41,040 nt of DNA from an uncultured Pseudomonadota bacterium (GCA_903844895.1 CAIMVM010000111.1:1-41040); one strand, 5' to 3'; shown: positions 2,953 through 36,639, numbered from the stretch's first letter. A program made the numbers and translations. Notes: a model not told the origin generated them from the letters alone.

Positions 2953-3081
2953 AATCAAAGCAATAGGGAAGCGGTACGTCCGTTACGCATGAGGCCTGGA
3001 TTTTGGAAGTACGGGCTCTAGTCTTTTTCAAGTTAATTCTGGTTTATAGTAGCGATTGATGTTTGGGAATCTAGTTTTTTG

Positions 3082-4518
3082 ATGTTTTTAGGTCGAGGTC
3101 CACAATTGGTAAAATCTAAAGACTCTTTTTGGCCCTATTCGAGACTAAAATCTACGATTGCAATTGCTTTATTTGTGATGGTTGTCGCAAGACTATTTGT
3201 TCTACAAATTAAGCCTTGGCCAGTTTCGCCAACTTTAGAAGCTATGATCACTTTAGAGTATGTCAATGTTCGCTCAAACGAAACCTGCAAGAATCCACAA
3301 GCTGGATTTGAGTTTAGGAATGCCATTGAAAGTAGAAACCCGACCATTGCCTGGTTGGTGTCACCAGGGTATTGGGTTTTAGGAATATTTGCTTGTCGCG
3401 ATGGTGAGATTAACGTAAATCGCTTAGTAAAGTGGAATCAGTGGTTTACGATTGCCACAGCGTTTATGGGCTGCATACTTTTGAGATTTTTAGCGAGTTC
3501 GTGGCTACTTGGTCTCTTTGCTGCCTTTTCTATATTGACCAAATCGTCTATTTTAGCTCGTCAAGATTTGCTAGCTATCGATGCACCAATGATGTTTTTT
3601 TTCATTAGCTGGTTTTGTGGCTTTGCTCATTATGTGAGAACTGGAAGCTTTTTGGGGGTAGCTCTCGGATTTTTGTTCTATGCCCTAGCAGTATTTTTTG
3701 ACCGATCAGCACTGGTTTTGGGCCTGTGCATTCCAGCTTTGTTAGTGGGAGCATGGACTTTAAGAAAGATGTTGGCTGAAAGCGTAGTTTCTAGACTTAA
3801 AGCAGTGGAGCTAGATGAGCGTCAATCCTTGCCGGTGCTTGTTGAAAGACGAAATCTGTTTTCTCGTGCCTTTGACAGTTTCGTGCCTGCGGTAAACTAT
3901 AGTTGGGATTTAGCTTCGCGTATTAAATCTGGGGGCATTTTTTCGACCTTGCGGGTACCTTTTGCCTACTGGGCTTATTATCGAAAACGCTGGCTGAGAA
4001 TTTCTATTGCTTGGCTAGCCTTAACTATCGGGCTGGCTTTTTTAGCCGCCCAAATGGAATGGCAAATATTTGGGGTGCCACGAGAAAGACTAAACTTAGA
4101 TCTTATCGAGCCTTTATTGACGATTATTCAACTCAAAGGTCAAGGATTGCATGCCCTCTGGCTCGTCGAGGTCTTGGAGCCATTGGACTTTAGGCTATTG
4201 TGCGCCCTCTCCATAGTGATACTCTGTGCCTTGCGCTCTCCAGCGGAAGGTCTTCCAGGATTCTTAGAGGTTTCCTTACTTTTTTTAATCGTTTTGGTAG
4301 GCCTTTTCTTCACCGCTTGGTTGTCAGATAGTGTAGATGCCAGTCTTTTTAGGTCCCTAACAAGCCAGGGTATTTGGGGCGAGGTGAAATATCTCATTCC
4401 TATTCGTCGTTTTTTTGGCTGGGTAGAACCTACCCTGATCGCTTTAGGGATAGGCGGAGTTTATAATCTTATTATGGTTGCAGGTCATCGAGTTGGAAAG
4501 GAAAATAGTCCTAAATGA
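3082..4518 (+). CDS. polytopic inner-membrane protein, possibly glycosyltransferase-39-like
   Basis: The 478-residue protein has about ten hydrophobic segments, clustered at roughly residues 20-40, 95-230, 305-325 and 380-470. The arrangement recalls GT39/PMT-type lipid-linked sugar transferases: an early loop with a conserved-looking NPTIAWLVSPGYW segment, then paired helices around RQDLLAIDAPMMFFFISW. The typical N-terminal acidic pair is not obvious, so the enzyme class is only suggested. The ATG at 3082 is preceded by a TTG at 3079. The ribosome-binding site is weak (GGGAA about 14 bases upstream). Its stop overlaps the start of the next gene as ATGA, so the two are translationally coupled. 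Expected location is the inner membrane. Confidence 0.6.
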   Translation: MFLGRGPQLVKSKDSFWPYSRLKSTIAIALFVMVVARLFVLQIKPWPVSPTLEAMITLEYVNVRSNETCKNPQAGFEFRNAIESRNPTIAWLVSPGYWVLGIFACRDGEINVNRLVKWNQWFTIATAFMGCILLRFLASSWLLGLFAAFSILTKSSILARQDLLAIDAPMMFFFISWFCGFAHYVRTGSFLGVALGFLFYALAVFFDRSALVLGLCIPALLVGAWTLRKMLAESVVSRLKAVELDERQSLPVLVERRNLFSRAFDSFVPAVNYSWDLASRIKSGGIFSTLRVPFAYWAYYRKRWLRISIAWLALTIGLAFLAAQMEWQIFGVPRERLNLDLIEPLLTIIQLKGQGLHALWLVEVLEPLDFRLLCALSIVILCALRSPAEGLPGFLEVSLLFLIVLVGLFFTAWLSDSVDASLFRSLTSQGIWGEVKYLIPIRRFFGWVEPTLIALGIGGVYNLIMVAGHRVGKENSPK

Positions 4519-5339
4519 AAACATCTATATTTTTTTTAGCGGTTCTTTCTGGATTAGTGGTGGTCGGATGTCAAAATCGTAATAATGAAGTTTTAGCGCA
4601 TTCTAGTGACATGACCGATGCTTCCATGGGGTTGTCAGCAAAAATGGGGGACTCTCTTGCATTAAATAGTGCGGATTTGAGCAAGTCGCACCTCTGCAAA
4701 TCCTTGAATATTCCTACTTTACCTTTTTGGTTTCCTGAAAGTAAAGTTTTTCTTACCCGTGTTTCGGCTGCCTGTGCCAGTGTAGATGGAAATCTGGAAG
4801 CCCAAGAAGATTCTCAGTGGGTTGCTATGGGTGTCCCTTGTTCGGGTGGCGATCACCGGTTTCGTTGGCTAGAAAACTATGACGATCCCAAGCAGGTGCT
4901 ATTTGACTTTGCGATCGCATGTCCTATGGCCCAATCTCAAACCGCAGTTTCAGAGTCTATTGCGAAGACTACTGGTCTTAACGCGACGAAGCTTATTGCT
5001 TTTAATCCAATGTCAGTTGTTTATTGGGAATTGCAGAACACCGGCGAAAAGGATGTAGGATCCCTGATAAGAGTGACTAATGTAAAGGAACTGAAGCCTT
5101 TCTGGCGTGAGTTCCTATATAAGAAAAAACCTCTTACATTTAAATTAGTTGGTTTTGAGTCTGCGTGGTTAGAAGGCCGTAAGTACTTTGAGGTTCAGGT
5201 AGATGTGTTTTTAAAGAGCCGCAATCGCTTTTCCATTCAAATTAAGGACGCTAAGGTTTTGGAAAATAAAGATGTGGCGCTTCTTCAAACAGCCTGTGCG
5301 GAGTTAACTCCAAGACGAGACTGCGATCGCGTTTTTTAA
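4515..5339 (+). CDS. predicted lipoprotein of unknown function
   Basis: The 274-residue product has a classic lipoprotein signal: Lys near the start, a hydrophobic FFLAVLSGLVVV core and a VVGC lipobox with Cys19. The mature part carries several further cysteines (near residues 61, 87, 109, 135, 260 and 269), which would suit periplasmic disulfides. No catalytic motif or named domain is recognised. The start overlaps the stop of the membrane-protein gene before it by four bases, so the two probably act in one process, for instance envelope glycan assembly if the partner is a GT39-type enzyme. That link is inference. Confidence 0.65.
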   Translation: MKTSIFFLAVLSGLVVVGCQNRNNEVLAHSSDMTDASMGLSAKMGDSLALNSADLSKSHLCKSLNIPTLPFWFPESKVFLTRVSAACASVDGNLEAQEDSQWVAMGVPCSGGDHRFRWLENYDDPKQVLFDFAIACPMAQSQTAVSESIAKTTGLNATKLIAFNPMSVVYWELQNTGEKDVGSLIRVTNVKELKPFWREFLYKKKPLTFKLVGFESAWLEGRKYFEVQVDVFLKSRNRFSIQIKDAKVLENKDVALLQTACAELTPRRDCDRVF

Positions 5340-5759: not shown

Positions 5760-6560
5760 CTAGTGTGCGACATTGGATTCCCCAGTCGGGGATGGTACCT
5801 CGGTAGGTTTTGATTCATTTGGATTCAGCTTTAAGTCATTGGTGTTTGGCCTAAAGCTGGCATCGAGGCTTTTCTTAAGACGTGCCAAAGCCACTTGTAA
5901 TGTTTTGTCATTAGGGGTGAGTTCGAGAGCCCTTGTCCAGCTCTTATCTGCCAGGTTTTTGTTTCCTAATTTCATGAGAATAGAGCCTTTCATTTTGTAG
6001 AGAAGTGGGCTTCCCGGATAAAACGCAAGCAAATTATTGATCTCAATGAGAGCGAATTCATAGTCCTTTGAGCGATAGAACGATCTTACCTTCGCGAGGC
6101 CAAGGGTATAGCTTGGTCCTTGGCTCTTGTCTGTTTTGCCAACTCCCATGCTACGATCCAACATGGCAGCAGTTGCCCCTTGTCTTATTTCTAGATCAGG
6201 CAGCTCAGAGAGTAATTCTTTGTCCGAGGAGACGGGTGAGGACTCCTTTGAAAGTTTCTTTTCGACGTTAGTCTTTCCCGAAGCTTCGAGGGCCACTGGA
6301 ATCTCTACGTCATAATTGCGGCCCCCGCCCGGAAGCTGAACTTCATATTCTGCGGCCCCAGTATTCGATCTGATGAGGAACGGTTCCTTCTTTTCGGATT
6401 CACCCAGCGCTGATGTCGGCGCAAAGGGAAAAGAAATAGGGCCATTCATTCGCTCCAGAATCCGCTCATCTGAAGAGGGGCTGGTTGAGGTGCAAGATGC
6501 CATTGCATAGAGGATCGACCCGAATACATATCTAGAAGTTGTATGAGAATACGATATCAC
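5760..6560 (-). CDS. TPR-containing lipoprotein
   Basis: The 266-residue product has a hydrophobic N-terminus ending in an AMASC lipobox (Cys23). A Pro/Ser/Glu-rich linker follows to about residue 150. Then come about two TPR-like helical repeats (residues 150-235): AKVRSFYRSKDYEFALIEIN, LLAFYPGSPLLYKMKGSILM and KLGNKNLADKSWTRALELTP, the last with the usual A-L-P spacing. The C-terminal tail is Asn/Pro-rich. TPRs bind protein partners, so a periplasmic or outer-membrane scaffold is likely. The GTG at 6560 has GGAGG eight bases upstream inside the preceding gene and overlaps that gene's end by 29 bases, indicating coupling to the barrel protein. Confidence 0.7.
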   Translation of the reverse strand: MISYSHTTSRYVFGSILYAMASCTSTSPSSDERILERMNGPISFPFAPTSALGESEKKEPFLIRSNTGAAEYEVQLPGGGRNYDVEIPVALEASGKTNVEKKLSKESSPVSSDKELLSELPDLEIRQGATAAMLDRSMGVGKTDKSQGPSYTLGLAKVRSFYRSKDYEFALIEINNLLAFYPGSPLLYKMKGSILMKLGNKNLADKSWTRALELTPNDKTLQVALARLKKSLDASFRPNTNDLKLNPNESKPTEVPSPTGESNVAH

Positions 6561-7716
6561 CCGACATACCTCCGCTAGTTTTCACAAATTCTTTGCCAAT
6601 GAGAACGTCTGAAGGAACAAGGTACGTGGCACCAACTGTCATAATGAACCTTTTTCCGAAAAAAACATCCCAGCCCAAACTTGCAGATGGAGCAAGGTAA
6701 CCAGGCGCATAGAACCCACCCAGACCAATGTGATACCCATTTCGAATATCATCATAGGACTCTAGGTTTCCCATAAAATTTTGCGCATAGGTCGCTTGCA
6801 AAGAAAATGCAGTTTTAAAAGGTTTGGCTTTGAGAGTTGTATCTTCTTCCGTAGTTCCATCTGTGTCAGAGTTTGTCGCTGCTTGCCCCGTTGTCGGATA
6901 TCCTTTAGAAATACTGGCCATGGTCATAAAGACTCTAAAAGAGAGGCCGAATTCTGAATTGCGGTTATTGAATTTTTCGCTTGCCCTTAGATTTAAGGAA
7001 ATAGCTGAGTTGTCTGGTGATTCGCCAGAAACGTTTGAGATGCCTCCTGCACCTACGCCTAATGTATATCGAAATTCAGGACTGTATTCATCTCCAGCCT
7101 TTGATTTTGCTATTTGGCTATAATCAACAGCGACTTTTTGAAAGCGCGTCCTTAAAGTTTCACTATTATAAGTCTTTGTCCATAAGGTTTCGCCAGAGTC
7201 GATATTAAAAACTTCGATGGCTAGAATCATGTGGCTGGTGTGGTAGACAAGGAGAACGTCTATAAAGTTTTCTATTCCCATCATTTTAGCCGCATCGCGG
7301 AGCTGAATGATGTTTGTGTCAGGAGAGGTAAGTTTCAGTTTTCCTTCGATTAATGTCGAAGTGCGAGCCTGGCAGGTAATACAGTTAATGAGTTTTACAT
7401 CCGAGTTTAAACGTATCCGCTCTGAAACCAGCAATTCTAAGTACTTTTCATATGACTGAGGGAGAGATTCATTTACAGAAGTTTTCCTAATGGCGACATT
7501 TCTTAGGCCAGATACCTGACCGTTCTTCACATCATAGCCAAATTCAGTAAGCAAGTCCTCAAGCACCATGTGAAACTGTCTCACATTGCCTTGCTGCATG
7601 GGTATCGTAGTATCTGCTTTCGCTTGGGATTGCGTTCCGCCTGAATTTACGGAGTCTTCAGCGACTGCTTGTGCCGAAAAAAGTAATATCCAAGTGACAA
7701 TGAAAACAGCGCGCAC
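6532..7716 (-). CDS. secreted protein with FlgO/CsgG-like N-terminal domain and C-terminal outer-membrane beta-barrel
   Basis: A Sec signal peptide (residues 1-19, FSAQAVAED cleavage region) precedes a globular domain to about residue 190. Its QLRDAAKMMGIENFIDVLLV and MILAIEVFNIDSGETLWTKT segments resemble the FlgO/CsgG/TolB-N type fold, where a strand pair reads 'rlvD-x-x-tGevlws'. From about residue 210 to the end there are alternating beta strands (FRYTLGVGAGG, ISLNLRASEKF, HIGLGGFYAPGY, FIMTVGATYLV), closing with IVFSYNF and a terminal Phe, as in BAM substrates. A CITC cysteine pair lies near residue 113. The GTG start at 7716 has GAGG six bases upstream. It is the first gene of a pair with the TPR lipoprotein gene. 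Function unknown; assembly or transport in the envelope is inferred. Confidence 0.65.
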   Translation of the reverse strand: MRAVFIVTWILLFSAQAVAEDSVNSGGTQSQAKADTTIPMQQGNVRQFHMVLEDLLTEFGYDVKNGQVSGLRNVAIRKTSVNESLPQSYEKYLELLVSERIRLNSDVKLINCITCQARTSTLIEGKLKLTSPDTNIIQLRDAAKMMGIENFIDVLLVYHTSHMILAIEVFNIDSGETLWTKTYNSETLRTRFQKVAVDYSQIAKSKAGDEYSPEFRYTLGVGAGGISNVSGESPDNSAISLNLRASEKFNNRNSEFGLSFRVFMTMASISKGYPTTGQAATNSDTDGTTEEDTTLKAKPFKTAFSLQATYAQNFMGNLESYDDIRNGYHIGLGGFYAPGYLAPSASLGWDVFFGKRFIMTVGATYLVPSDVLIGKEFVKTSGGMSGDIVFSYNF

Positions 7717-7826
7717 GATTCACCTCTTAGCGATTCTAAGAGAGGATTCGGCTTTTAACTAAATTACTTTAGGAGGTATCTCATCAATTTGAGGTCTTAT
7801 GGATCTCAATAGGGAAATCAATGTGG

Positions 7827-8564
7827 CTATTTACTAGGATCGTCGATCGGTGTGATTTTACGACCAAAATAGTCTCTCGAATGGCTGATATAGCGATCCC
7901 GGGTGTAGCGGGCGTAGCGATTGGTTCCCGTGGCGACATCCAAACTTTTTGACAAAGCTACAAAAATTATCATTTTGGCTTGAAAATGAAATATCTTTTG
8001 GTCAATGGTTTTAAGGTTGCCAGACATCTCTCGATTGAGTGCATGGTGTCCCGCAAGAAAGCACCAATGATAATGAGGTATTTTATCCCTAATCATAGTG
8101 GAAATGGTGACGCTAGCTGCCTTTAGGGAGTCGCTATTCTTGGCGGTTTTGGTGACCTCAGCAAGTTCGTCTTGGCAGTGACTAAGGGAGACTTGATTTG
8201 CTTGATCATTGTCCAAAAGAAGTTCATTAAGTTCTTCCGGGTCTTCGGAGTTTGGAAACTTCTGCAAGTCTCCCTCAGACAGGGGCTGGCTCGCACTAGT
8301 TGAAACGTCAGAAGGTGCTGGTGTCGGGCTCGTAAGGGGTGATTTTCCGTCTAAGGAAGCTTCTATAGCAGCTCTACCCTCATCATCGGAAGCCTCTGGG
8401 TCCACCGTCGACGATGCCATGCTTTGGCCAGAAAGCGAAATACTCGAAGGGGGAGTCGGGCTATCAGAGACCGAGTCGGATTTTTCGTTGGACTTGCAGC
8501 CAAGGCTTAATGCCAAGCAGAGGTATAGAGCCCGACCCAATAGTATATTTTCTTTCGACCCCAT
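7827..8564 (-). CDS. lipoprotein with Ser/Pro/Glu-rich linker and conserved C-terminal region
   Basis: The start is taken at the ATG at 8564, which has GGGGA five bases upstream and gives a clean lipoprotein signal: MGSKENILLGRALYLCLALS followed by LGC. The longer frame to 8633 would hide the signal. Residues 25-120 are low-complexity, rich in Ser, Pro, Asp and Glu. The C-terminal 120 residues look folded, with LSHCQDELAEVTKTAKNSDS, a KIPHYHWCFLAGHHALN segment and an Arg/Tyr-rich RYARYTRDRYISHSRDYFG tail. The His/Cys-rich HYHWCFLAGHH stretch is unusual, but no known motif matches. The start overlaps the end of the upstream barrel gene by 58 bases. Confidence 0.6.
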   Translation of the reverse strand: MGSKENILLGRALYLCLALSLGCKSNEKSDSVSDSPTPPSSISLSGQSMASSTVDPEASDDEGRAAIEASLDGKSPLTSPTPAPSDVSTSASQPLSEGDLQKFPNSEDPEELNELLLDNDQANQVSLSHCQDELAEVTKTAKNSDSLKAASVTISTMIRDKIPHYHWCFLAGHHALNREMSGNLKTIDQKIFHFQAKMIIFVALSKSLDVATGTNRYARYTRDRYISHSRDYFGRKITPIDDPSK

Positions 8565-9259
8565 TGCATCCCCGTTGTAAGTCCTGTGCTTAACGCACCA
8601 CCTATGATTTTTCCGTAGCGCAATTCCCACCAAAGTCCAGGTGGGTCCGTTTTGAGTCCAGGACGTGAGCTAAGCTCTGGTTCTCCGGGACCCAACACAT
8701 TACGTCCATTTATCTTAACAAAGCTTGCGCCAAAGTCTATGGAAGTCTGGCGACGATTCTGAATCTTAGTGTAGCTTACGCTTGGCCCAAAGTAAGCAAA
8801 TCCAACTTTACCCATAGAATCTCCAATTGTGCCTTCCCCAGATACCGAGAATATACGAAGTCCTAGCATAAATGGAGATTCGTTTACCCTATAGGAAAAC
8901 ATTATTTGGGTTGTGGGATCCACTTGCCAGTTTTTATAGGCGTCAGATGTCTTGATCTTTGTGTAGTTGAGCCCAAGAGTGAGTTCCCAAAGATAGGAAT
9001 AGGGAGTTTTCTCATCCTCTTCAACTGTGGGTTTGACCTTTATAGGCTGCAGTTTTTGATCTGAAGGGTCCTTTAAGCTTTCCGTGAAGCTTACATTAGG
9101 CACTCGCATAGGGGGACTATAGAGTTTAGGGTCAATCGGCACAGGCTCGGCTGGTGCGGGATCTAAACTTGGAGGTAAAGGCGCATCGATGATCGTTTCC
9201 CCAAGAGCAAGCCAACTCTTTAAAAAAAGAATGCATGTCATGGATTTTATGGGGTTCAT
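8507..9259 (-). CDS. predicted outer-membrane beta-barrel protein with Pro-rich N-terminal linker
   Basis: The 250-residue product has a signal peptide (residues 1-20, with an ALG-type cleavage region), then a Pro-rich stretch (PLPPSLDPAPAEPVPIDP) to about residue 50 and a charged linker to residue 85. From residue 88 on, amphipathic beta strands appear (YLWELTLGLNYTKIK, TQIMFSYRVNE, FMLGLRIFSVSGEG, VGFAYFGPSVSYTKI, TSIDFGASFVKI, ALSTGLTTGMQWG, IYYWVGLYTSAWH), consistent with an eight- to ten-stranded barrel. AAAGGA precedes the ATG at 9259. It heads the four-gene minus-strand cluster and is divergent from the gene at 9428 across 168 bases. Family not recognised. Confidence 0.6.
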   Translation of the reverse strand: MNPIKSMTCILFLKSWLALGETIIDAPLPPSLDPAPAEPVPIDPKLYSPPMRVPNVSFTESLKDPSDQKLQPIKVKPTVEEDEKTPYSYLWELTLGLNYTKIKTSDAYKNWQVDPTTQIMFSYRVNESPFMLGLRIFSVSGEGTIGDSMGKVGFAYFGPSVSYTKIQNRRQTSIDFGASFVKINGRNVLGPGEPELSSRPGLKTDPPGLWWELRYGKIIGGALSTGLTTGMQWGRKKIYYWVGLYTSAWH

Positions 9260-9427
9260 GAGCGGTCCTTTCTAGTTTATCAAGTCCGGCGAGGCTAAAA
9301 TTTTAGTTCGTTCTCCGCTTAAACTACACGTTTAGACATAAGTTCCAGTTACAATATATAGGAAGATCGATCCAGCGCGATAGATTAGTAATTTCTATTT
9401 TATTCCTTTACTCCTCACGAGGTACAT

Positions 9428-11095
9428 ATGGCAGTCTTTAGCATCAAAAATAAGACCACAGAACCAAAGTCAGCAGAAGTTCCAAGAAAGGCACCGATGG
9501 AAATGGGTTTGCCAACTCTTGGGAAGCCCACGAAGTCAAATAGGCTTTCAACGATCGTGGCATTCCTTGGCTTTATTCTCTCATTGGGGGGATTGGGGTT
9601 ATATATCAGTGAGTCGCGCATGGGGCAAAAAGATGAAGGGAAGCAATACTTTCTTACGCTTTCTATACTTGATAGTGCGAAACAGCCCATACCCGGAGCT
9701 ACATTAAAAAGTCAACAAAGGGTTATCGGCACTACAAACGCAGCAGGACAATGGTTAAAGACTTTTGCCATTGTGGCTGGATCGGAATACCCCATTACCG
9801 TTGAAGGAACTGATAATGAAGGGCGCAAGGAAACTAAACATGTGAAACTCATCTTTCCTCATTGGACAAAAACATCTTCGGTCATGAACCGAGTGATTCG
9901 CTTGGATACTTTAAAAAATTCTGTCCCTAATTCTACAGCGCAGTCTGCCCCTTCGGATGGTCTGCCATCCTCAATTGAGGGAGGAAAAATAGAAGATACT
10001 GAGGGTACGGCAAAGGGCCCCCAAGACAATGCAGCCAATGTAATTGTAGACTCCAATGTTGGTCCGTCTAAGGGAGTTCTACCTTCAACGGGCCCTTCCA
10101 GCTCCCAGAATCCTGAAACAGCGATTTCTTCAAGCAATACCAAACAGGGAGTAGCGCCCCCACAGGAAGCCTCGAACAAGGCAAATTCAAATAAATCCCC
10201 CTCGGATAGCCAGGGCAAAGTTGCGGCCTTAAACCCGAAAGAAAAATCAGAACCAACGGAAACACAAGGTGTGCCTTCAAAAGTCGCCCCTTTACTACCT
10301 AAGAATTTGGCAAGTATTTGGTTTCGAACGGAAGGCAACTCTTCTGCAAGTGCATTAACGCGAGGACAATCATTAGAGTCCATTAAAGAAAAGCTTCAGA
10401 TGCGAGCAAAATCTTTAGGCTTCACCCTTGATGAAAAGTCTAATTTAATACTTTCCTTAAAGAACCTGGATGGAAAAATAGGAAGTGAGGCTCAAGACGT
10501 CATTCAAGTAGAGGTCCGTTTAGGGAATAAGGCGATGGAAACTTATCTTAGGAATTATCAAGAAGATTCCCTAACGACAGCGAGACTGATCCTATGGCGA
10601 GCGAGACTTTCTATGCCGGTTGCCTACCAAATTAAAAAGACCGGGGATCGATTTCTCGCAATTCAGCCCCAAGAAGGTCCGGCCCTATGGCGTCTTAGTG
10701 GAGGGACAAATCTATCAGACGACTCAGGCGCGCGAGGTGTTGTTGGTGAAGAAAAACCGAAGGCCTTAACGGTTCCTGTGGGTGGAACGCCACAATTTTG
10801 TTTGACGCCTACCGTTTGCAGGGCCCAACTCATTCCAGGTGAACTTGCCCAAAAAGGCTGGAGTAAGAGAACGTTGACGGTCCTTGGTGCAAATGGCCGC
10901 AAGCTCATGATTTTTGCAGCTGGCAATCCAGTCGTGGAATCGAAAGGAGAGTTTTCTTATGAGGGCCCAGACAATGGATTTACTGTATTTACAGTTTTAG
11001 AAGACGGCAAAATTATCTATAGGAACGCTCTGCATAACAATCTCTATCAGCAGACGATTTTGACACTGCCTGTCGCTTCCATCTCCCGTCGCTGA
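9428..11095 (+). CDS. single-pass inner-membrane protein with Ig/carboxypeptidase-regulatory-like domain and long low-complexity linker
   Basis: The 555-residue product has a short cytoplasmic N-terminus, one membrane span at about residues 40-60 (STIVAFLGFILSLGGLGLYI), then a beta-sandwich domain at about 72-145. In the latter, ILDSAKQPIPGATLKSQ and GTTNAAGQW follow the CarboxypepD_reg/Ig-like pattern of 'v-x-d-x-x-g-x-P-i-x-G-a' plus 'T-d-x-x-G'. Residues 160-290 are Ser/Pro/Asn/Lys-rich and probably cross the periplasm. The C-terminal 260 residues appear folded but are not recognised; a two-Cys FCLTPTVCRA segment lies near residue 460. GAGG sits five bases before the ATG at 9428. Its divergent arrangement with the barrel/lipoprotein cluster suggests a shared envelope role. 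Confidence 0.6.
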   Translation: MAVFSIKNKTTEPKSAEVPRKAPMEMGLPTLGKPTKSNRLSTIVAFLGFILSLGGLGLYISESRMGQKDEGKQYFLTLSILDSAKQPIPGATLKSQQRVIGTTNAAGQWLKTFAIVAGSEYPITVEGTDNEGRKETKHVKLIFPHWTKTSSVMNRVIRLDTLKNSVPNSTAQSAPSDGLPSSIEGGKIEDTEGTAKGPQDNAANVIVDSNVGPSKGVLPSTGPSSSQNPETAISSSNTKQGVAPPQEASNKANSNKSPSDSQGKVAALNPKEKSEPTETQGVPSKVAPLLPKNLASIWFRTEGNSSASALTRGQSLESIKEKLQMRAKSLGFTLDEKSNLILSLKNLDGKIGSEAQDVIQVEVRLGNKAMETYLRNYQEDSLTTARLILWRARLSMPVAYQIKKTGDRFLAIQPQEGPALWRLSGGTNLSDDSGARGVVGEEKPKALTVPVGGTPQFCLTPTVCRAQLIPGELAQKGWSKRTLTVLGANGRKLMIFAAGNPVVESKGEFSYEGPDNGFTVFTVLEDGKIIYRNALHNNLYQQTILTLPVASISRR

Positions 11096-31029: not shown

Positions 31030-31665
31030 GTGCAATTTAATATCGTAGAAAAACTTTTAGGCATGACGCTTTTTGGATCGGAATGGGTACTTTGGCTTCT
31101 TTTAGCCTCAAGCGTACTTTCTGTCGCTGTCATTTTTGAGCGATTCTTTTATTTAAAGAAACTGTCGATTGATGTGGGCGGATTTACGCGTGAGCTTTCT
31201 GACTGTCTCAATGCTCGCGATCTAGAGGGTGCTGTTCGACTCTGTGAAAAGAGTCCTTCACTTGAAAGTCAAGTTGCATTAGTAGGCCTTAAAAACAGAA
31301 CTCGCGGCCCAGAAGCGATGGAAGGATCGATGGACGGATTCCTCATCGGCGAGCGTCAAAAACTAGATAAAAATTTAGTGATTCTTGGTACTCTTGGAAA
31401 CAATGCCCCTTTTATAGGCCTCTTTGGAACGGTTCTTGGAATTATTAAAGCTTTTAATGATTTGTCTTTAAATTCTGCGGGAGGCCCTTCAGTTGTGATG
31501 GCGGGTATTTCCGAAGCTTTAGTTGCGACCGCCGTAGGTCTATTGGTCGCAATACCTGCGGTAATTTTTTATAATTTTTTCAACCGCATTGTTAAAAAGC
31601 ATGTCAGTAGTTCGGCGGCGATTAGTAAGTTAGTTATGACGTATAAAAGTCAATTGGGAGAATAA
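31030..31665 (+). CDS. exbB: MotA/TolQ/ExbB-family proton channel subunit
   Basis: The 211-residue product has three membrane spans (about residues 14-33, 117-140 and 155-180) and the family pattern: a large cytoplasmic loop, then LGTLGNNAPFIGLFGTVLGI and GISEALVATAVGLLVAIPAV. With ExbD/TolR it forms an inner-membrane channel that passes proton-motive force to a periplasmic partner. The GTG at 31030 has GGAGG eight bases upstream. The gene is followed two bases later by exbD. TolQ is an alternative name; no tolA, tolB or pal is nearby, so the partner is unknown. Confidence 0.88.
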   Translation: MQFNIVEKLLGMTLFGSEWVLWLLLASSVLSVAVIFERFFYLKKLSIDVGGFTRELSDCLNARDLEGAVRLCEKSPSLESQVALVGLKNRTRGPEAMEGSMDGFLIGERQKLDKNLVILGTLGNNAPFIGLFGTVLGIIKAFNDLSLNSAGGPSVVMAGISEALVATAVGLLVAIPAVIFYNFFNRIVKKHVSSSAAISKLVMTYKSQLGE

Positions 31666-31667
31666 AC

Positions 31668-32102
31668 ATGGCCGGCGGAATTGCGGAAGGCGATGATGAT
31701 GAAATTACTGGTATAAACGTTACCCCGTTAGTCGACGTAATGCTTGTTCTTCTCATTATCTTTATGGTCACAGCTAATTACATCCATCAGAGGTCCATTG
31801 AGGTAAAGCTGCCTAAAGCAGAAACAGGAGCCGCTAATTCGGAGACCAAGAATATATCTTTTACGCTAGATCAGAGCGGGGCTCTATATATTGATGGCAC
31901 AGCAACCAGTTGGGGGGATGTCAGTGAAAAAATAAAGGCTGCACTGGCGAAAAATGGCGCGGGCTTACAGGCTATTATTACGGCAGATACGAACACTTCC
32001 CACGGAGATGTAGTGAAACTCATTGATGCTGTTAGAAAAAACGGTATAAATGACTTTGCGTTAAATGTCGAGACGTCAACACCCGCACAAAAAGCGCCTT
32101 GA
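31668..32102 (+). CDS. exbD: ExbD/TolR-family biopolymer transport protein
   Basis: The 144-residue product has one N-terminal membrane span (NVTPLVDVMLVLLIIFMVT, about residues 18-36) with the conserved Asp that carries protons, then a periplasmic domain. That domain has IEVKLPKAET and a LIDAVRKNGINDFAL helix typical of ExbD/TolR. It starts two bases after the exbB stop. No TonB-like gene follows; the next gene is gshA-type. Confidence 0.9.
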   Translation: MAGGIAEGDDDEITGINVTPLVDVMLVLLIIFMVTANYIHQRSIEVKLPKAETGAANSETKNISFTLDQSGALYIDGTATSWGDVSEKIKAALAKNGAGLQAIITADTNTSHGDVVKLIDAVRKNGINDFALNVETSTPAQKAP

Positions 32103-32115
32103 GAAGGGGTATTTG

Positions 32116-33549
32116 GTGTCAAAGAATTCTAAATTATCTCCTTTGACTAGAGATGCGGTAAGACAGTTCCTTTCGCAAAATACGTTTCGACTCACACCTA
32201 GGTCTGAAACCGAGTCCTCTTCATCGAATGTCGGGCTTGTTGGAGTCGAGATTGAGATGCTCCCACTGAGGGGGAAAGATTATTCAGGTATTCCGCAACT
32301 TCAAGGTCAACAAGAGTCCATTTTAAGTTGGATCCTACCTCTGGGAGATGAGCTAAAATGGAAACAAAAAACAGAACCGAAGGAAAATAGTCCCGGCCAG
32401 GTAGTTGTAACGTTGCTTGAGTTGCCAGAAGGAGACAATGTTTCCTTTGAACCAGGTGGCCAAGTAGAGATTTCCTCGAAGCCGTATGCCAGCCAAGTTG
32501 AGATGGTGAGTCGGGTAAGACAACTGCGAACTCAGATAACTACTGCTTTAGGATTTCATGGGGTGAATCTGGTAGGGATTGGCTACAATCCCATAGCAAC
32601 AACCGATCAAGTCGGCCTGCAAATGGCCAAAAAGCGCTATCGGGCAATGGACGCTTATTTTGAGACAATAGGTCCTTATGGCCGGCAAATGATGCGGCAG
32701 ACGTGTACCGTTCAAGTCTGTCTAGATTTTGGCAGTGATCAAGAAACCATGGCAAAGCGCTTTTGGGTCGGCCAAATGATAGCTCCTATAGCTGCAGCTA
32801 TATTTGCAAATTCTCCTATAGTGAATCGAAAGCCTGCAGGCATCGTGGGTCATCGTTCCAAGATTTGGCGGAATATTGATTCGTCTCGCACGGGACTTCT
32901 TTTTCCAAAGTCAAAGCTGATGGATTCACTGACCGCTCAGGCATGCGTAGAAACCTATGAGCGTTTCCTTTTGGAAAGCAAAGTAATATTTATTCAGGCT
33001 CTCGACTATGAGGTTCCCAAAAATCTTACCTTTGGCACCTGGCTCGCTGAGGGTTACAAGGGGATTTTTCCCAATGAGGCGGATCTCGAGCTGGCTTTGT
33101 CGCTACTTTTTTCAGAAGTGAGACCAAGAGGTTTTTTTGAATTTCGCTCTGTAGATAATCAGCATCCTGTCTGGCAGTTTGTTCCCACCGTCTTTTGGTC
33201 GACACTCATGTATAGCGAAGGTGCATTGAATCAAGCTTGGGAGCTGTTAGCGCCATTGCAATCTCGACTACCAGAATTGTTAAAACGATCCGAGCAAGGA
33301 TTGAAAGATCCAGAATTGAGTTCTTTGTCTCAGCGACTAGTTGCAATTGTAGAGCAACATCTGGAAACCTTGCCAACTGCTTTTAGGGACAAAACAATAG
33401 AGCATGATTTCCGTAGGTTTTGTGATAGATATACCCTTAAGGGGCGAACGCCAGGTGATGAATTGATTGAGCTATTGGGTCAATCTCAAGGTGATTTAGG
33501 AAGTGGATTTTGGTCCAGATTAAATGAAAAATTAGCGCGGGGCATGTAG
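32116..33549 (+). CDS. gshA: glutamate--cysteine ligase (plant/alphaproteobacterial type)
   Basis: The enzyme makes gamma-glutamylcysteine, the first step of glutathione synthesis, using ATP. VGLVGVEIEMLPL near the N-terminus, FEPGGQVEISSKPYAS, LVGIGYNPI, AKKRYRAMDAYF, RQTCTVQVCLDF and FFEFRSVDNQ are the blocks of the GCS2-like family. The GTG at 32116 has AAGGGG six bases upstream and lies 13 bases after the exbD stop (477 residues); the frame is open to 32065 inside exbD. It appears co-transcribed with exbBD. A glutathione synthetase gene is not in the window. Confidence 0.87.
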   Translation: MSKNSKLSPLTRDAVRQFLSQNTFRLTPRSETESSSSNVGLVGVEIEMLPLRGKDYSGIPQLQGQQESILSWILPLGDELKWKQKTEPKENSPGQVVVTLLELPEGDNVSFEPGGQVEISSKPYASQVEMVSRVRQLRTQITTALGFHGVNLVGIGYNPIATTDQVGLQMAKKRYRAMDAYFETIGPYGRQMMRQTCTVQVCLDFGSDQETMAKRFWVGQMIAPIAAAIFANSPIVNRKPAGIVGHRSKIWRNIDSSRTGLLFPKSKLMDSLTAQACVETYERFLLESKVIFIQALDYEVPKNLTFGTWLAEGYKGIFPNEADLELALSLLFSEVRPRGFFEFRSVDNQHPVWQFVPTVFWSTLMYSEGALNQAWELLAPLQSRLPELLKRSEQGLKDPELSSLSQRLVAIVEQHLETLPTAFRDKTIEHDFRRFCDRYTLKGRTPGDELIELLGQSQGDLGSGFWSRLNEKLARGM

Positions 33550-33588
33550 CTCTGGAAATTACTTATGACTTTGATAAGGTGATTTAAT

Positions 33589-36500
33589 ATGTCAGATTCA
33601 GATAAAGTAAATAAAAGTGAATTCGATGTCGTGGATCCGCAAAACTATGCCATGGAAAAGAGTCCAGAAGATCTTGAGGTCTATATACAAGATGTTGCTG
33701 ACACCGTGCGCATTGGTCTAGATCAGTCCATAGCTATACTGACCCCATGGTTTTTTAAGAATATGCCTCAGACATACTATCAAACGACGCCGCGCGCCGA
33801 AAAGGTCAGGCATTTGTCTGCAGTTATTACCGGACATGTATTTGAAACAAAACAAACGGTGGAACTATGGGATAGAGACCGACTTAAAGTTACCTATATT
33901 GGTCCAGGAAGTGATAAGAAAATACTGACTGATATGATAGAAAAATTGGCAACTGTCCCCGTTAAAATGGGTGCTCTCTATTTTTCCCACGACAAGCTGT
34001 TATTTCTTTCAACCTTCCATTGCAAAGGTTATAAGCCAGTCGACTTATCTAATCGCTTCAACAAAGGAAAGTTAGATAAAGCCAGAACACTTATGTTAGC
34101 AGAATTTCCAGGTCAAGAAGAAGCTATTGATCATTATCTCAATTATGTCGACAACGATCTTGTGGTCTACGGCACGGTGGAACGACTATTTGTAATTTTT
34201 AAAATGGTTCGCTATATGGTCTCCCATGAAGGAGCTTATACCCAATTGGAGCCATTTGAGAATTCAACCAAAGGCAAACTGTCGATTGGTATCAAGGGAG
34301 TTGAGATTCCAGAGGTTGCAGAACAGGTGTTTCACTTGGTCAATCGATATGGATTTAAAATCCACCGCGCATTTTTAGCTCGGTTTGATGAGGGGTACTC
34401 CGATCCGATCGTAGTTATGGTTTTCGAAATCGAGGGGAATAAGGGAGAGAAAGTTGATAAGCTAAATCTTTCCATGGTCAGGCTTACGAAAGCGCTTAGG
34501 ACATTAGGCTGGGTGGATTCGGATGAATACTCTCAACTCGCACTTGCTCCTTTAAATCTCTCCATAAATGCTGCCAACTTTGTTCGCAGCATCGCAGCTT
34601 GGGTTCATATTCAGTTAGGCAAAGAGAATCCGTACTATTTTTCTGAATACAAAGTTCATCAGACATTTTCTACTTATCGGGATATGGTTCCCGTGTTAGT
34701 GGAATTGTTTCGTATGCGGTTTGATCCCATGCAAGAGGAGCAGCGGAAAAACGGAAGTTACAATGTTGAGAGAGCGATGCTTGCGTCTAAGATAGATGAT
34801 ATTACAGACGCAGTAGAACGAAATATTATGAACTCTGCCTTAGTCTTTATCGACAATATTTTGAAATCAAATTATTTCTTGCAAACCAAAACCGGTTTGG
34901 CGTTTAAATTGAATCCTAATATTTTAAACTCTAGGTATTATGCAAATCGTCCATTCGGTATATTTTTCATAGTGGGCCGAGATTATAGGATGTTCCATGT
35001 GCGGTGGAAAGATATCGCAAGAGGAGGGCTTAGGGTCGTTATGCCACGCAGTAAAGCTGACTATGGCTACGCCCTCGCCGGATCATTTGATGAAGTTTAT
35101 GGTCTCTCTTTTGCTCAGCAGCTGAAGAATAAAGATATTCCTGAAGGTGGCTCTAAAGCGGTTTTAATTCTTAAGCCAACAGGAAATCGGGACAGGGCAG
35201 TAAAAGGCGCCATCAATGCTGTATTGGACCTGCTAGTCGAAGGTGATGAAGCTGGAGAAGGCCAATCTCAGGCTCCAATTACATACTACGACAAAGAGGA
35301 AATCATCTATTTAGGGCCCGACGAGAATGTCACAAATGAGCTCATTTCATGGATTCCTGATCAAGCTGAGCGCCGAGGCTACAAGTACGCTCGAGCCTTT
35401 ATGTCGTCTAAACCTGGAGATGGCATCAATCATAAAGAGTATGGAGTAACGTCAGAAGGTCTTAATGTTTTTGTGGAATATACCCTTAACTTTTTAGGTA
35501 TCAACCCTCGTTCACAGAGATTTACCATAAAGATGACAGGCGGCCCCGATGGCGACGTTGCAGGCAATGAACTTAAGATTCTACACAGAGAATATGGGGA
35601 AAACTGCCGAATTGTAGGCATTGCTGATGGCTTTGGGGCTGCGGCGGACCCTAATGGACTTGATTGGACGGAACTGCTTAGGCTAGTAAAAGAAGAGAAA
35701 TCTATTTCTCAATTTAATCCTTCCAAACTTTCTACACACCCAGAGTCATTTATTCTTCTAGCAGATAGCCTTGAAAATATTAAAAGGCGCAATGAGCTTC
35801 ATTTCAGGATTAAGTCTGACATATTTATACCTGCGGGGGGGCGCCCTTATACTGTAAATGAAAATAACTCTAAGTTGTTCCAACTTGAAGATGGCACTCT
35901 CTCTTGCCGTGCCATAGTGGAAGGCGCAAATATTTTCTTTACGACGGAAGCTCGCAATAAGCTGCAAGAAATGGGTATGATTATCATAAAAGATTCATCA
36001 GCAAATAAAACTGGGGTGATTTGCTCGTCTTTTGAAATTATAGCATCATTGATTTTGAGTTCTGAGGAATTTCTTGAAATCAAGCCACTTTATGTGGCTC
36101 AAGTATTGAAAGTGCTCAGGCAAAAAGCGGCCGATGAAGCTAGTCTCCTTTTCTCTGAATATATGAAGAATGGAGAGAGAGTTTCCTTGGTGGATTTGTC
36201 GATGCGTATTTCCAGGGAAATCAATAGCGTTACAGATTTAATTTTGGATGAGTTTACGAAGCATCCCGCTCAAATCATCGGCGAGCAAGTCTTCGTGGAT
36301 CTATTGTATAAGCACGTGCCACCAGTCATCCTAGAAAAATATCGAGATCGAGTGACGAATGATCTTCCAGAGGCTCACCGCATCGCGATACTTTCTGCCT
36401 ATATTGCAAGTCTCATTGTATATACGGAAGGGTTGGGTTGGCTTGACAGTATACCAGAAGAAGACAGGTACTTAGCGTGCGTTACCTACATCCGCAAGCA

Positions 36501-36639
36501 ACAAGAGACGCAGGGCCTTATAGATGCCATATTGCACTCTAACGTCGCAGCTAAGGAGCAAGTAGCTGGTATTCTAAGGAGCGCTGCGGCTAGGGAATTA
36601 ACAAAAATTGCACTCACAAAGTCCCATGCGGTGAAGTGA
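33589..36639 (+). CDS. NAD-dependent glutamate dehydrogenase, large form
   Basis: The product is 1016 residues long, in the large NAD-GDH group though shorter than the roughly 1600-residue type. The N-terminal half (about 1-460) is a regulatory region. The catalytic half contains RWKDIARGGLRVVMPRSKAD, IPEGGSKAVLIL, an NAD-binding part with GADPNGLDW-like AAADPNGLDW, and EGANIFFTTEARNKLQEMG with IIKDSSANKTGV. It oxidises glutamate to 2-oxoglutarate and ammonia with NAD, mainly for amino-acid catabolism. AAGGTG precedes the ATG at 33589. A bidirectional terminator follows. Confidence 0.92.
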   Translation: MSDSDKVNKSEFDVVDPQNYAMEKSPEDLEVYIQDVADTVRIGLDQSIAILTPWFFKNMPQTYYQTTPRAEKVRHLSAVITGHVFETKQTVELWDRDRLKVTYIGPGSDKKILTDMIEKLATVPVKMGALYFSHDKLLFLSTFHCKGYKPVDLSNRFNKGKLDKARTLMLAEFPGQEEAIDHYLNYVDNDLVVYGTVERLFVIFKMVRYMVSHEGAYTQLEPFENSTKGKLSIGIKGVEIPEVAEQVFHLVNRYGFKIHRAFLARFDEGYSDPIVVMVFEIEGNKGEKVDKLNLSMVRLTKALRTLGWVDSDEYSQLALAPLNLSINAANFVRSIAAWVHIQLGKENPYYFSEYKVHQTFSTYRDMVPVLVELFRMRFDPMQEEQRKNGSYNVERAMLASKIDDITDAVERNIMNSALVFIDNILKSNYFLQTKTGLAFKLNPNILNSRYYANRPFGIFFIVGRDYRMFHVRWKDIARGGLRVVMPRSKADYGYALAGSFDEVYGLSFAQQLKNKDIPEGGSKAVLILKPTGNRDRAVKGAINAVLDLLVEGDEAGEGQSQAPITYYDKEEIIYLGPDENVTNELISWIPDQAERRGYKYARAFMSSKPGDGINHKEYGVTSEGLNVFVEYTLNFLGINPRSQRFTIKMTGGPDGDVAGNELKILHREYGENCRIVGIADGFGAAADPNGLDWTELLRLVKEEKSISQFNPSKLSTHPESFILLADSLENIKRRNELHFRIKSDIFIPAGGRPYTVNENNSKLFQLEDGTLSCRAIVEGANIFFTTEARNKLQEMGMIIIKDSSANKTGVICSSFEIIASLILSSEEFLEIKPLYVAQVLKVLRQKAADEASLLFSEYMKNGERVSLVDLSMRISREINSVTDLILDEFTKHPAQIIGEQVFVDLLYKHVPPVILEKYRDRVTNDLPEAHRIAILSAYIASLIVYTEGLGWLDSIPEEDRYLACVTYIRKQQETQGLIDAILHSNVAAKEQVAGILRSAAARELTKIALTKSHAVK

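Follow-up and report, generated by a model that had tools for sequence, protein, structure and literature searches.

Within 41,040 nucleotides of DNA from an uncultured Pseudomonadota bacterium (the window, which is contig C111 of an incomplete genome of 372 contigs, 95.6% complete), four minus-strand genes between positions 5760 and 9259 probably encode the outer-membrane and periplasmic module of an ion-driven machine that is like the flagellar motor and distinct from the flagellum. The engine is probably a MotA/MotB pair together with a long protein that appears, from its domains and predicted fold, to be a natural fusion of the FliF-FliG type, both encoded elsewhere in the genome. Evidence for this comes from the linkage of the genes in one clade, from MotA orthology, from profiles of presence and absence that agree, from the folds predicted for the domains and from a MotA arginine that is retained. 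That the whole amounts to a flagellum-independent rotary machine of Oligoflexia, with a fused FliF-FliG-type ring, its own MotAB and a TPR lipoprotein leading to a TolB-like barrel, and serving surface movement or attachment, is a further step that we advance as a serious, still tentative, proposal.

Where is the link of the window to a motor? A scan of genome contigs with a single sequence as the query gave no match; an alignment as the query then found the relatives, which are metagenome-assembled genomes of the order Oligoflexales, with Silvanigrellales as relatives at the level of class. Homologs of one product of the cluster, a CsgG-like domain joined to an outer-membrane barrel (hereafter CsgG-barrel), were sought in 144 genomes and found in 32, of which 31 are taken as real and the remaining one (G037) as a weak paralog. 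The Silvanigrellales orthologs, 26–32% identical over their full length, are revealing in their company: at four loci (L041, L042, L044, L045) the genes for CsgG-barrel, TPR protein, MotA, MotB and a FliG-like protein of 837–968 amino acids are consecutive on one strand. A fifth locus (L275), reaching the contig end, has TPR-MotA-MotB-fusion. The operon at L042, scanned for domains, has PF01618, PF13677 with PF00691, and FliG_M with FliG_C. No flagellar structural gene is present among the scanned proteins of these class operons, nor around the fusion gene in the genome of the window.

In Oligoflexales, the genome of the window included, the parts of the machine are at three separate loci. The MotA/MotB pair of this genome (L154:3977-5469, contig C352) is in the arrangement motA-motB-clpS-clpA, the clpS/clpA neighbours having been checked in two motAB loci, and it matches PF01618 at 4e-20, PF00691 at 2e-10 and PF13677 at 2e-4, the last being below the curated cut-off; thus the MotA_ExbB, MotB plug and OmpA domains are all represented, and the ion-binding Asp is invariant in the alignment. 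In a tree of MotA sequences, those of the class operons and those of the Oligoflexales motAB-clpS-clpA loci, the genome of the window included, form one clade (100/100), separate from flagellar MotA and from two more MotA groups that belong to other TPR/CsgG-like clusters. Other CsgG/TPR homologs in the order also adjoin MotA-MotB (L134, L135, L142). These paralogous Oligoflexales clusters, at L134:3519-8508, L135:6704-11616, L142:2772-7414, L143:2597-7690, L144 and L149, consist of TPR proteins (often with CsgG-like ones), a protein of about 550 amino acids and MotA-MotB, the MotA being in two separate clades.

The window has an ExbB/ExbD pair of its own (31030-32102), and weak BLAST matches to the class MotA prompted its consideration as the motor partner. 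It was dropped because genes for GCS2 and glutamate dehydrogenase follow, and because the branch of its ExbB among the MotA sequences of the tree is very long. The run at 31030-36639, in which a gene of the GCS2 family and a large one for glutamate dehydrogenase come after the ExbB/ExbD-like pair on the same strand, is in itself an unusual combination.

Counted over 43 genomes of the order, CsgG-barrel, the first barrel-like protein of the cluster (barrel1) and motor-type MotA have one and the same profile, with 25 genomes that have them and 18 that do not, and with the fusion in 23 of the 25 carriers and in none of the 18 non-carriers (Fisher 1.6e-12 for the identical profiles and 3e-10 for the fusion, relatedness being ignored). 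When the CsgG-barrel label is placed on an RpoB tree of 53 genomes, 10 changes are required, and well-supported branches force at least 6 of these; the MotA label behaves likewise. The losses fall within a single genus (g7) and within families f5, f8 and f11. Positional linkage does not explain the matching profiles, since MotA, fusion and cluster are at three places in the genome. A phylum-wide search of 58 genomes found the fusion restricted to genomes already known to have it.

In the genome of the window the fusion gene is at L080:5851-8067 (contig C361). Its product begins like a secreted protein, with an N-terminus resembling a signal sequence, and continues with two predicted ring-building folds like those of FliF, a single transmembrane helix and then the FliG middle and C domains, for which the domain scan gave FliG_M at 5e-8 and FliG_C at 2.3e-9; the profile of the fusion matched FliG crystal structures in the PDB at 1.8e-16 over the middle and C domains. 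The periplasmic part, modelled by AlphaFold2 with a predicted local distance difference test score (pLDDT) of 84, is predicted to contain two units of alpha-beta-beta-alpha-beta order, and the best PDB fold matches of the model are the rings of Salmonella FliF (1e-6 and 7e-6). Two Cys-xxx-Cys segments are invariant in all fusion sequences, and most have a Ser-rich linker. Directly upstream, in this genome (L080:4802-5767) and in many relatives, is a DsbA/thioredoxin-like gene, which would fit the four invariant periplasmic cysteines.

What of the surfaces at which a stator would meet a rotor? With E. coli MotA and FliG from the K-12 record as residue reference, the pairs in contact in E. coli are MotA R90 with FliG D288/D289 and MotA E98 with FliG R281 (PMC12505986). 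The motor-type MotA clade keeps R90 and has A, M, V or T in place of E98; the fusion has E or D in place of R281, mostly A or V in place of K264 and, in the order, mostly E-D at positions 288/289. The R90-D288/D289 pair is thus largely intact in the order, and the E98-R281 pair is lost on both sides. Of the full flagellar charge set (FliG K264, R281, D288, D289 and R297; MotA R90 and E98) no more is left than MotA R90 and, for the most part in the order, the acids at 288/289. The altered charge pairs provide a direct test of stator-rotor contacts.

How might such a machine work? MotA/MotB-type stator units would pass ions and push the cytoplasmic FliG-like domains of a ring of fusion proteins, whose periplasmic ring-building domains would carry torque or movement into the periplasm. 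There the TPR lipoprotein and the TolB-N/CsgG-like domain, the latter fixed to the outer membrane through the barrel that follows it, may hold the machine or receive the movement, and barrel1 and the second lipoprotein would be outer-membrane additions specific to the order. In drawing this picture we infer that the parts assemble physically, that ions flow, that there is rotation, and which way force is transferred. Gliding or surface attachment as the output is a first guess, and a doubtful one.

A number of observations weigh against a machine of this type that is separate from the flagellum. Sequence comparison by hhalign of the periplasmic part of the fusion with a single E. coli FliF gave no match, and because of that 'FliF-like' is a statement about predicted fold only, the ring-building fold being widespread. 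In Silvanigrellales most fusion sequences have lost the acids at 288/289. Two genomes (G020 and G042) have CsgG-barrel and MotA without a detected fusion, as does a third, G054, where the CsgG-barrel gene runs into the end of the contig. All 31 carriers have flagellin, and the 8 genomes without flagellin are without the system (p 0.001). Finally, in three genomes of family f5 (L035, L037, L047) a flagellin gene is beside the cluster. The last two points would suit an accessory of the flagellum, by which the ordinary flagellum would gain an additional disk in the outer membrane together with an alternative stator and rotor, active under some conditions. TolB-N/CsgG-like folds do occur in flagellar outer rings, and the Vibrio FlgO/FlgP/FlgT and MotX/Y rings are the natural comparison. 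However, 19 flagellated genomes, sister species within genera g7 and g19 included, are without the whole set, so the system is not simply the flagellum. Further, the fusion would supply a FliF-like ring of its own, superfluous where FliF and FliG already exist, and the carriers keep a separate FliG match, of ordinary size or fragmentary. We consider such an accessory unlikely, though a serious rival.

The CsgG-barrel protein itself brings another possibility to mind. Its AlphaFold2 model (pLDDT 70, predicted template modelling score 0.42) has an alpha/beta domain at about residues 42-190 and 8–10 strands at 214-393. In Foldseek the modelled first domain matches TolB best (2.6e-7), then LpoB (3.2e-5), GNA1162 and PelBC, pointing at this model confidence to a TolB-N/LpoB-like fold, and the second matches OmpA, NspA and OmpX. 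The likeness to TolB, LpoB, GNA1162 and PelBC is one of predicted fold in the first domain; in contrast to them, CsgG-barrel is fused to an 8-stranded barrel, has an invariant C112-x-x-C115 in its alignment and has no detectable sequence similarity. A PDB sequence search with its profile found no match, nor did Pfam or NCBIfam, even with 12 homologs scanned by Pfam; the CsgG/FlgO-like-plus-barrel assignment of a preliminary description, made from the window alone, is thus one to which Pfam is blind and which model and Foldseek matches back. With TolB as the best fold match, could MotA/MotB drive a TolB-like barrel for maintenance of the outer membrane, in the manner of Tol-Pal or ExbB-type energised systems, with the fusion a scaffold rather than a rotor? 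The other TPR/CsgG-like clusters of the order that have MotAB and no adjacent FliG_M gene would be in keeping with that. However, it is just in the MotA of those clusters (L134, L135, L142, L143, L144, L149) that R90 is lost, and its retention in the motor-type clade suggests a real contact with FliG; the fusion, moreover, co-occurs with the remaining parts. Energised maintenance of this sort seems quite improbable.

The five open reading frames (Table 1) are real genes, because homologs in the same order occur in many relatives, and they have the positions and strands given in the preliminary description. Its overlaps, 58 bases between barrel1 and the second lipoprotein and 29 between CsgG-barrel and the TPR lipoprotein, were exact on recomputation, and both its lipoproteins have a lipobox. 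The longest version of the second lipoprotein begins at TTG 8633; the ATG at 8564, used here and giving the 58-base overlap, is most likely the start. This protein has an invariant Cys and an HxCF motif, is kept beside barrel1 across the order and matched no known family in Pfam or NCBIfam. Both barrel proteins have N-termini like signal peptides. For the five proteins as a set, Pfam and NCBIfam scans gave no family except weak TPR matches, in agreement with the earlier view that no named system covers the cluster as a whole. The divergent protein does have its membrane anchor, a single transmembrane helix at about 42-60, followed by the Pro/Ser-rich linker; the only trace of the Ig-like domain ascribed to it was a weak match to CarboxypepD_reg (0.0012), in a single homolog.

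Table 1. Genes of the cluster, with positions counted from the first letter of the window
Product	Position	Strand	Length (amino acids)	Features and basis
TPR lipoprotein	5760..6560	-	266	GTG start; lipobox MAS-C23 (MASC); weak TPR_2/TPR_9
CsgG-like (TolB-N/LpoB fold) domain + 8-stranded outer-membrane barrel (CsgG-barrel)	6532..7716	-	394	Alignment, AlphaFold2, Foldseek
Second lipoprotein	7827..8564	-	245	Lipobox SLG-C23 (SLGC)
First barrel-like protein (barrel1)	8507..9259	-	250	N-terminal Pro-rich segment; barrel predicted from sequence
Divergent inner-membrane-anchored protein	9428..11095	+	555	C-terminus ...SRR conserved; alignment

Conservation of gene order in relatives was the check that the preliminary description had proposed, and the order barrel1, lipoprotein, CsgG-barrel, TPR is found at 13 loci of the order, where in most cases the inner-membrane gene and serA are divergent from it; in relatives the TPR gene comes immediately after that for CsgG-barrel. 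Scattering of the genes, named there as counting against a joint function, is seen in part: the order is kept in many genomes, but in several of family f11 CsgG-barrel and TPR are alone and barrel1 and the divergent gene are together elsewhere. The divergent gene is separable. It is intact in four g19 genomes without the system, short or broken in further genomes, and absent from Silvanigrellales, and for these reasons it is a conserved neighbour rather than a core part. The four minus-strand genes belong together. What does this leave of the earlier idea that the five proteins are a self-contained assembly, secretion or adhesion apparatus anchored in the inner membrane by the divergent protein? 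The synteny of all five in many genomes of the order speaks for it, as does the pairing of barrel1 with the divergent gene even when relocated. On the other side, the divergent gene exists without the rest in f5/g19 and is missing from the class relatives, and CsgG-barrel has its closest partners in MotA/MotB and the fusion. The view of the genes as an envelope module, with parts in the outer membrane and the periplasm, has held up; the inner-membrane engine is probably not the divergent protein, and an apparatus of the kind then proposed, less likely than an ion-driven motor, is now very improbable.

How does the proposed motor compare with known systems? It has in common with the flagellar motor MotA/MotB with the ion-binding Asp, MotA Arg90, the FliG middle and C domains and, as predicted folds, FliF-like ring-building units. 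It differs in that a single polypeptide, with a four-Cys periplasmic region, holds both the FliF-like and the FliG parts, in the loss of both MotA Glu98 and FliG Arg281, in having a TolB-N-like barrel and a TPR lipoprotein as outer-membrane partners, and in a gene set apart from flagellar FliG. Laboratory FliF-FliG fusions of Salmonella and Vibrio (PMC6079021, PMC11481574) likewise have ring-building domains, membrane helix and FliG in one chain; by comparison the present one is natural, is without a detected FliG N domain and has two ring-building folds. A protein of similar design occurs in a distant genome, where at L266:3-7900 a protein of 740 amino acids has YscJ_FliF_C (7e-5, just under the cut-off), FliG_M, FliG_C and TPR. 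A second natural fusion of FliF-FliG type, it is one large gene before MotA-MotB, and suggests that the design reaches beyond this phylum. In the Agl-Glt gliding machinery of Myxococcus, as here, a stator-type channel has TPR proteins and outer-membrane barrels as partners; we know of no FliG- or FliF-like rotor in it. The Agl stators have been placed in the generic TolQR/ExbBD-type clade (PMC12505986).

Two further clusters, L269:4295-10549 and L270:57-3865, have MotA-MotB, a protein of about 431-435 amino acids without clear family, and a FliG-like protein in which N, middle and C domains are all present; at L269 TPR genes flank these, and gcpE and a gene for a lipid A acyltransferase come next. 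Stators of flagellar type are familiar from swimming, and their relatives from gliding, secretion and defence. The open-licence papers searched contain no description of a natural FliF-FliG fusion, of MotAB with a FliG-like protein, of gliding in Oligoflexales or Silvanigrella, or of a rotor of FliG type anywhere but in flagella and the export systems related to them; similar machines, none described in that literature, may be commoner than described. If the proposal is true, a machine in which MotA still meets FliG, and in which a FliF-like ring is coupled to a barrel of the outer membrane, would inform the origin of the flagellar motor from parts, and would also show the range of uses open to its core.

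Two features of the surroundings of the cluster deserve mention. In genus g8 an extra gene for about 310 amino acids, with a lipoprotein-like start, is between those for the second lipoprotein and CsgG-barrel (L022:8859-9806, L032:10829-11758, L048:6884-7813). On the plus strand of the window, genes for a multi-membrane protein and a lipoprotein (3079-5339) are kept beside the cluster in many genomes of the order, and it is between their homologs that the flagellin gene is located in L035, L037 and L047.

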